Shown one piece after another: positions 4,143 through 52,088 of a stretch of DNA of 64,000 nt. Numbering within the stretch: the first letter of the stretch is position 1; each line of letters starts with the position of its first letter. The stretch is from the NCBI RefSeq assembly GCF_030682035.1, contig NZ_JAUXQZ010000045.1:1-64000 (forward strand), in the 5' to 3' direction. Both the position numbers and the translations under genes were made by a program. This DNA is from Brevundimonas sp. GTDB lineage: Bacteria; Pseudomonadota; Alphaproteobacteria; Caulobacterales; Caulobacteraceae. Below the pieces are notes generated by a model. That model worked only from the letters and a program-made list of their open reading frames with translations, was not told the origin of the DNA and ran no database searches.

Positions 4143-4285
4143 GTCTCCTTCCCCCGTAGTGGCGAGGGTGGTCGCGCAGCGACCGGGTGGGGAACGCCAG
4201 CCACGCGCCGGCTGCGCCAAGCTTCAGACTTCCCCACCGGGCTCGTCTCCGCCTCGCCGTCCCTCCCCATGAAGGGGAGGGAGAG
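4143..4285. repeat. Long hairpin-forming intergenic repeat, copy 1
   Basis: The arms of this block between the two M28 genes are inverted repeats: a C-rich run near 4149, GGGTGGGGAA near 4186 pairing with TTCCCCACC near 4230, and CCCTCCCC-ATGA-AGGGGAGGG at 4261-4282. The unique core (AACGCCAG ... GCCAAGCTTC ... ACTT) reappears in reverse complement at 19710-19755 inside equivalent arms. It belongs to a dispersed palindromic family in this window. Confidence 0.85.
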
Positions 4286-6380: not shown

Positions 6381-6402
6381 TTCCTCCCCTGAAGGGGAGG
6401 AA
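6381..6402. repeat. Short CCCCTCC hairpin after the RidA gene
   Basis: TTCCTCCCCT-GAA-GGGGAGGAA forms a near-perfect 9-bp stem immediately after the RidA stop codon. It matches the outer hairpin of the larger intergenic repeat family and lacks a T-run, so it looks like a solo repeat arm rather than a classical intrinsic terminator. Confidence 0.7.
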
Positions 6403-51605: not shown

Positions 51606-51653
51606 TCCTCCCCTCCAGGGGAGGGGGACCATCCGAAGGATGGTGGAGGGGCG
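51606..51653 (+). repeat. Left inverted repeat of the DUF559 element
   Basis: Two adjacent hairpins: CCTCCCCT-CCA-GGGGAGG and CCATCC-GAA-GGATGG, followed by TGGAGGGG. It is the reverse complement, with a handful of substitutions, of the right end at 52038-52088. Confidence 0.85.
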
Positions 51654-51688
51654 CCAGACATTACGCAATTCCATGTTAGATTGCATGA

Positions 51689-52039
51689 GTGGTCGCGCCG
51701 CACGACACAGTTCAACACGCCCGAAAACTCCGCAGACGGCTCACCTTGCCGGAGGTCCTGGTGTGGCAGGCGTTGCGCGGCGGACGTTTGGTGGGACGGC
51801 GCTTCCGGAGACAGCACCCGGTCGGCCCCTACATCCTTGATTTCTACTGTGACGAGCTTCAGCTGGCCGTCGAGATCGATGGCCACAGCCACGATCATCC
51901 GGATCGCATCGCCCATGACCAGCGTCGGACGGGCTGGCTGAACCGGCAAGGCGTTCAAATGATCCGCCTCGCGGCGCGAGACGTGCTCGCCGACATGGAC
52001 GGAGCGCTCGGGATCATCCGGAGAACCGTGGGGCGGTGA
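51689..52039 (+). CDS. DUF559 (Vsr/PD-(D/E)XK-like) endonuclease-domain protein
   Basis: 116 residues, almost entirely one DUF559 domain. Visible: LTLPEVLVWQALRGGRLVGRRFRRQ (N-terminal basic helix), the core YILDFYCDELQLAVEIDG with the acidic pair typical of the fold (about residues 49-66), and the final helix WLNRQGVQMIRL. DUF559 is related to Vsr/MvaI-type nuclease folds, but activity of solo small members is not established. Start GTG 51689. The surrounding inverted repeats make this the candidate enzyme of a mobile element. Confidence 0.88.
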   Translation: MVAPHDTVQHARKLRRRLTLPEVLVWQALRGGRLVGRRFRRQHPVGPYILDFYCDELQLAVEIDGHSHDHPDRIAHDQRRTGWLNRQGVQMIRLAARDVLADMDGALGIIRRTVGR

Positions 52040-52088
52040 CATCCCTCCACCATGCTTCGCATGGTCCCCCTCCCCCAAGGGGGAGGAA
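52038..52088 (-). repeat. Right inverted repeat of the DUF559 element
   Basis: CCCTCCACC-ATGC-TTCGCATGGT with CCTCCCCC-AA-GGGGGAGG, two hairpins in the opposite order to the left end. Overall it mirrors 51606-51653; it ends right at the minus-strand glycosyltransferase stop. Confidence 0.85.

Follow-up and report, generated by a model that had tools for sequence, protein, structure and literature searches.

What is a single gene doing between two inverted, hairpin-forming repeats that fill an intergenic gap from one stop codon to the next? The question is raised by a stretch of 64,000 nucleotides from a Brevundimonas genome (hereafter the window), in which a unit of 483 nucleotides (nt) occupies the entire gap between the stop codon of smc (51605) and the end of a GT26 gene on the minus strand (52089). 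The unit, first described from the sequence letters alone, proved to be real: its ends, or arms, are inverted and carry two hairpins each, a single DUF559 gene lies inside, and its boundaries touch the stop codons of smc and of the GT26 gene. The pairing of DUF559 genes with such arms is almost certainly real and specific, and on balance we read the unit as a repetitive extragenic palindrome (REP)-nuclease element, in which a DUF559 gene resembling Vsr and homing endonucleases lies between inverted arms of the BoxC/PIT kind and would be spread by nuclease-driven repair. The features of the unit are as follows.

51606 to 51651, plus strand: left REP arm (type A), the 5' end of the unit, abutting the smc stop codon
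51607 to 51624, plus strand: outer hairpin of the left arm, with pyrimidine block CCTCCCC, a loop, and purine block GGGGAGG
51628 to 51644, plus strand: inner hairpin of the left arm, ACCATCC-GAA-GGATGGT, whose stem covaries among dispersed copies
51645 to 51651, plus strand: mirror third strand of the left arm, GGAGGGG (triplex-type motif), matching the reversed purine block at 7 of 7 positions
51689 to 52039, plus strand: DUF559 (PF04480) gene, predicted nuclease, GTG start, 116 amino acids
52043 to 52088, minus strand: right REP arm (type A), inverted, ending beside the GT26 stop codon
52049 to 52065, minus strand: inner hairpin of the right arm, ACCATGC-GAA-GCATGGT
52069 to 52086, minus strand: outer hairpin of the right arm

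As an inverted pair the arms extend over 51606-51650 and 52043-52087 (45 nt, 87% complementary, 392 nt apart), and no other inverted pair scored 34 or more when the window was scanned in 25-nt steps with a core of 320 nt and flanks of 300 nt. From outside to inside, each arm consists of a pyrimidine block, a short loop, a purine block, a second hairpin and GGAGGG; the mirror strand, complete on the left, matches at 6 of 7 positions on the right. Folding of the arms as single-stranded DNA yielded two hairpins per arm, with z values of -1.9 to -4.2 relative to shuffled sequences for the four strands tested, and for the weakest of these the energy alone was unremarkable against shuffles.

The arrangement recurs around DUF559 genes in general. 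The arm score was that of the best inverted match between the two 300-nt flanks of a DUF559 match, loci scoring at least 40 were counted as armed, and windows in the same loci, shifted by 800-1000 nt, served as controls. The loci taken (69 from Brevundimonas, 70 alphaproteobacterial and 29 from other proteobacteria, with L162 counted as a miss because of wrong coordinates) are the best-scoring matches of longer lists, and weak or decayed DUF559 genes are under-sampled among them. Inverted arms were found at 4 of the 5 DUF559 loci in the unit's own genome, at 53/68 loci in Brevundimonas and at 41/68 alphaproteobacterial loci, compared with 0/546 shifted controls. The phylum-wide sample gave 26/38 for further alphaproteobacterial loci (controls 0/150) and 15/28 for non-alphaproteobacterial loci (controls 1/108). 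When each site is counted once, an armed member is present in 30 of the 36 Brevundimonas site clusters that could be tested, or in 29 of 36 by the first member alone. Arms in direct orientation, either additional or as the sole type, were present at 0/5 loci in the own genome, 22/68 in the genus, 20/68 in the class, and 9/38 alphaproteobacterial and 14/28 other loci in the phylum-wide sample (controls 5/150 and 2/108). The 139 armed units span a median of 489 nt, and a crude rule has the pyrimidine block facing outward in 100 of them, inward in 13 and in no clear direction in 26. A gene-centred control with the GNAT acetyltransferases of the genus showed arms at none of 26 loci (30 taken, 4 too short). 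Six cyanobacterial plasmid loci, scored without controls, gave mixed inverted/direct values of 29/155, 27/23, 128/50, 21/21, 96/66 and 34/60. At four cyanobacterial plasmid loci (L414, L415, L417 and L419) the DUF559 genes adjoin genes annotated as DUF1156 or BREX-1 PglX, and some of these four have BoxC-like sequences nearby.

Arm sequences vary from unit to unit (CCTCCCC, CCTCTCCC, CCTTCTCCCC and others), and most obey a common rule, that the purine block is repeated in mirror order further inward. With A allowed to match either A or T, a mirror match of at least 0.85 was found in 184 of the 213 DUF559 arms that have a detectable hairpin (262 arms in total), where shuffled tails led us to expect 24.9. 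Intrastrand triplex repeats of this kind, termed BoxC or PIT, were recognised in E. coli in the 1990s, BoxC initially close to envM/fabI. The DUF559 gene of E. coli, ycjD, lies in the order sapF-ycjD-fabI; in KE47 and EMG2 (L342 / L292) its last codons and stop codon fall inside a BoxC-like stretch, and a complete BoxC motif lies 168 nt beyond it, ahead of fabI.

Genes of the GIY-YIG family, fetched from the same genus as a control (L255-L284), turned out to have repeats of their own. This family includes homing endonucleases. Inverted arms flank 18 of 26 GIY-YIG loci (30 taken, 4 too short), of which 14 have the form TTCCGCTCATCCC[C/G]GC...GC[C/G]GGGACCCAG, three a GTCATCCCCGACG variant, and one (L284) a CGTC-like form. 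The GIY-type motif occurs in 18/18 of these arms and in 0/57 DUF559 arms (p 1e-17), and a mirror match is found in none of the 30 GIY-YIG arms with a detectable hairpin (36 in total; 0.7 expected). It speaks against a passive link that these two families of nucleases are unrelated, that homing endonucleases occur in both, and that each has repeats of its own.

Copies of the arm are dispersed through the 2.9-Mb genome. A strict arm pattern has 37 matches there, compared with 2 for the pattern reversed; no fewer than two of these matches, C17:41366 and C18:28475, belong to another sub-family that happens to fit the pattern. Ten of the matches form five stand-alone pairs oriented like the unit, with the first arm forward and the second reversed, and two DUF559 units account for another four with their arms. 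Four pairs were read from end to end; in these a spacer of 29-36 nt stands where the unit has its gene, and short outer ends, mostly ATT...AA, are shared. Among 22 distinct copies of the inner stem, 98.7% of cells are paired and 27 cells are changed on both sides. Paired cells, double-changed cells and the covariation score were each reached by 0/500 shuffles, and at most 67.5% of cells paired when partners were slid as a control. This covariation points to selection on the single strand in its folded form, or to its being remade in one piece, and flips of the whole hairpin could add to it. Hairpins at 4143, 6381, 19661 and 28466 of the window had been proposed as offspring of the unit, a proposal that we abandon, since by eye none is a copy of its arm in the printed sequence. 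Those at 4143, 19661 and 28466 are inverted repeat pairs resembling REPINs, belonging to sub-families other than that of the unit's arms, and that at 6381 is a lone terminator-like hairpin.

Repeat and gene also occur together and vary together. We searched 240 alphaproteobacterial genomes for DUF559 and for the pattern CCCTCTCCC-loop-GGGAGAGGG-connector-GTGAGGG; the pattern written backward, used as a control, was found in none of the genomes listed. For DUF559 matches at E<1e-15, both were present in 38 genomes, the repeat only in 7, the gene only in 20 and neither in 175 (odds ratio 47.5, p 1.7e-22), and for any DUF559 match the corresponding numbers are 39, 6, 38 and 157. Genomes with the gene only may carry other arm sequences. 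The four Brevundimonas genomes without DUF559 have 0, 0, 4 (G025, 70% complete) and 9 (G041) copies of the arm. Arm similarity tracks protein similarity among the 129 armed loci (214 loci had flanks), with a Mantel value of 0.28, or 0.26 without close pairs and 0.38 within the genus (52 loci), each reached in 0/999 permutations. In another order, for example, the arm type of the window recurs around the DUF559 gene of a unit carried by a Sphingobium plasmid.

The protein encoded by the unit matches DUF559 (PF04480) at 99.5 bits, the curated cut-off being 20.6, and had no transposase match by Pfam. Its residues E22, W26, R41, Q42, D51, E62, D64, G65, D77, R80 and R93 are invariant. The best predicted-fold matches outside the family are the homing endonuclease I-Bth0305I and E. 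coli Vsr; the homing endonuclease is the closest, and profile similarity to it was found as well. Judged by its overall fold and conserved acidic residues, DUF559 is predicted to be a PD-(D/E)XK protein like the Vsr/EDxHD homing endonucleases. The suggestion that such a protein takes the place held by the REP-associated tyrosine transposase (RAYT) beside other REPs is supported both in Brevundimonas and across Proteobacteria, and the Y1 transposase is nearly absent: a RAYT-type Y1 transposase had no match in the unit's own genome, and Y1_Tnp was found in 1 of 61 Brevundimonas genomes, other transposase families not having been searched for. No methyltransferase gene adjoins DUF559 in the stretch of the window that was read. 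LexA-like boxes, as reported for Caulobacter vsrA, were present at just 3 of 217 loci, which argues against a general link to the SOS response. Phage records gave one weak DUF559 match, and a PADLOC search gave weak partial matches and nothing more.

The sites occupied by these units differ widely. The 74 Brevundimonas DUF559 loci fall into 37 site clusters, an upper bound because diverged flanks may split one site. In 219 pairs of units from different clusters, gene-spanning DNA homology continued more than 10 nt beyond the outer edge of the arm at 12 of 876 ends; it stopped within 10 nt of the arm edge at 256, which is partly expected because the arms are repeats, and inside the unit at 608. 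At the smc/GT26 site, 80 Brevundimonas-type loci were scanned for the DUF559 and GT26 genes of the window, and the gap sequence was read for 25. Counting the window and 25 others, 26 genomes have a near full-length GT26 match beside smc; DUF559 lies between the two in 2 of them, and the other 24 have no match to the DUF559 of the window. The second occupied locus (L073) has both neighbours in place and a DUF559 protein 66% identical to that of the window. Weaker DUF559 matches lie further downstream in L086, L103 and L124, with no GT26 match in the stretch examined. Elsewhere the gap holds nothing (L066, L067 and L076), one outer hairpin (L068, L071, L088 and L126), one arm (L075 and L123) or unrelated sequence, and these states are intermixed on a tree of smc and GT26. 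Turnover at this site is high, and a gene fixed at one site in all relatives, the outcome that the preliminary description had set against itself, is not what we find. In L065 and L072 the gap contains a GIY-YIG-type repeat pair (TCATCCCGGCG...CGCCGGGATGA), which makes this gap a possible hot spot for elements of more than one kind.

Several candidates for an empty or newly gained site were rejected. The flank of L239, used as a query against 26 genomes, gave short partial matches besides its own genome and no orthologous site. E. coli without ycjD beside fabI was considered; in the one strain examined, SCU-101, the position upstream of fabI is taken by an efflux operon and is therefore not an empty site. 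For Sinorhizobium (L288 and L289), a truncated DUF559 remnant in S. meliloti Ak57 compared with the intact gene in Sinorhizobium sp. K101 indicates decay rather than gain. In the latter strain the DUF559 gene adjoins smc on its upstream side (the dsbA-smc gap), next to a repeat of about 150 nt that is present in more than 100 plasmid records. The Sphingobium relative lacks more than the unit and its boundary is blurred, and in Azospirillum the DUF559 region was matched in 7/7 records.

From the unit, its recurrence, the co-occurrence, the joint arm-protein variation, the conserved residues and the predicted fold, all established from sequence, we infer binding, cutting and copying of the following kind. 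The DUF559 protein probably acts on its own arms. It would recognise the folded single-stranded arm, most likely at replication forks, and cut at the folded arm or directly beside it. As in homing, repair of the break would draw on another repeat unit as its template. Arms and REPINs (pairs of arms) would spread in this way and, less often, so would the arm-gene-arm unit as a whole. Copies without the gene and lone hairpins would be deletion products or passengers. Joining of DNA is not to be expected of a hydrolytic nuclease, which makes homing-like cutting and copying the simplest active model; spread by this route is nonetheless a proposal that we make tentatively.

A number of observations weigh against this interpretation. 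Inverted arms are lacking at about a quarter (genus) to nearly half (non-alphaproteobacteria) of the sampled DUF559 loci. Among five named loci the inverted score reaches 40 in Sphingobium alone (66), the others being Azospirillum (28), E. coli (20), Neisseria (20) and Sinorhizobium (18), with repeats that are one-sided or direct. E. coli ycjD has no inverted arm upstream and its repeats are on the 3' side only, so that E. coli shows adjacency and nothing more. A clean insertion from empty to occupied was not found among the smc/GT26 relatives and the other sites compared, and the nearest relatives are explained by repeated loss, with one hairpin left behind, no less well than by gain. No target-site duplication was seen in the four arm pairs read, and two of the five covariation measures for the inner stem are ordinary (double-change pairs reached by 50/500 shuffles, pair types by 96/500). 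The tested repeat pattern is absent from 20 of the 58 genomes with a strong DUF559 match. In 61 Brevundimonas genomes the arm-type count is weakly correlated with the number of DUF559 genes (Spearman 0.32, p 0.013), and the co-occurrence and Mantel tests ignore phylogenetic relatedness. Genomes with hairpins and no DUF559, which the earlier account had named as contrary evidence, do exist in small number (3 of the 32 with at least five repeat copies; G041 and G025), and to that extent the objection stands; repeats without the gene would be expected of left-behind copies, and also under looser models. A PD-(D/E)XK nuclease by itself is not expected to join DNA. Finally, the available text of PMC12907096 proposes a Caulobacter DUF559 protein as a mismatch-repair Vsr instead. 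In Neisseria (L293), the DUF559 gene has BoxC-like repeats on both sides, which by eye are direct and not inverted.

Three other explanations deserve consideration. The gene might be a selfish guest, with REPs spreading by other means and a homing-type DUF559 gene repeatedly inserting into arm pairs, its cleavage site, so that it uses the repeats without making them. The stand-alone inverted pairs would suit such a history, since they share the layout of the unit with a 29-36 nt spacer replacing the gene (four read), as would the homing endonuclease that is the nearest fold outside DUF559 and the excess of repeats over genes. Yet the strong co-occurrence and the covariation of arm and protein suggest a closer tie, and the sole other mobiliser tested, the Y1 transposase, is in 1/61 genomes; we regard this explanation as rather unlikely. 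Less probable again is a role in host repair, with DUF559 a Vsr-like mismatch or structure-repair enzyme, retained close to hairpins for its removal of the replication blocks that they form, and with repeats arising from replication slippage, for this leaves unexplained both the location of the gene between matching inverted arms in 30/36 testable site clusters and the joint variation of arm and protein sequences.

A merely passive association, in which the hairpins are terminators and any orphan gene gathers them, finds some encouragement in the position of the hairpins between convergent stop codons and in the lone hairpins that persist at related sites without the gene. It is made very improbable by the absence of arms around GNAT genes (0/26) and in shifted controls (0/546), and by the different arm families of DUF559 and GIY-YIG genes (GIY-type motif 0/57 versus 18/18). 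The REP-nuclease interpretation may extend further. Homing-type nucleases of at least two unrelated families, DUF559 and GIY-YIG, may possibly be the dedicated drivers of two classes of palindromic repeats that are among the commonest in bacteria, namely the BoxC/triplex-type REPs and the TCATCCC-GGGACCCAG (and CGTC-like) REPs, although we put this forward with some hesitation. If it is true, folded DNA is cut and repair copies the repeats, which would proliferate without any transposase. The scale may be judged from the available text of PMC4666352, where the genomes with one G/C-rich triplex motif number over 260. A DUF559 gene that lies between the arms and varies jointly with them is a concrete, testable mobility candidate for the BoxC/PIT triplex repeats, and the GIY-YIG observation points likewise for the CGTC REPs. 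The association would also give a possible function to DUF559, an uncharacterised family to which E. coli ycjD and Caulobacter VsrA belong, and it suggests that the repeat content of bacterial genomes is shaped by homing-type nucleases as well as by RAYTs. Among the open-licence papers listed by our searches, we found none linking DUF559, GIY-YIG or ycjD to such repeats.

The unit can be compared with several known systems. In RAYT/REP systems (REPtrons, REPINs) a nuclease-type gene likewise lies between REP palindromes, and the repeats are likewise dispersed singly and as inverted pairs, with several families per genome. The enzyme of those systems is a Y1/HUH tyrosine transposase, whereas that of the unit is a predicted PD-(D/E)XK-fold DUF559 protein; the GTAG tag at the foot of their REPs is absent from both arms in the window, and these arms carry a mirror (triplex) strand, unlike RAYT/REP repeats. 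The predicted fold of DUF559 resembles that of the Vsr-like homing endonuclease I-Bth0305I and of E. coli Vsr, but DUF559 is free-standing between repeats and does not lie in an intron or intein. The CGTC-tagged REPs, which in the available text of PMC3733652 are abundant, also in Alphaproteobacteria, adjoin no RAYT and 'apparently lack a dedicated transposase', are similar in these respects and differ in sequence from the arms of the window. A further parallel is with the BoxC/PIT triplex motif, whose pyrimidine block, loop, purine block and mirror purine strand are found also in most DUF559 arms. The E. coli motif has a short second loop (TTA or CCG) where the arms of the window have a second, covarying hairpin in the connector; short connectors do occur in other DUF559 arms. 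According to the available text of PMC4666352, E. coli K-12 has 23 copies of the motif, five close inverted pairs among them, and the motif is unstable, deletions leaving a hairpin; in its close inverted pairs and in these remnants it resembles the arms described here. That text reports the triplex motif without mobility genes nearby, whereas here DUF559 is the associated gene.
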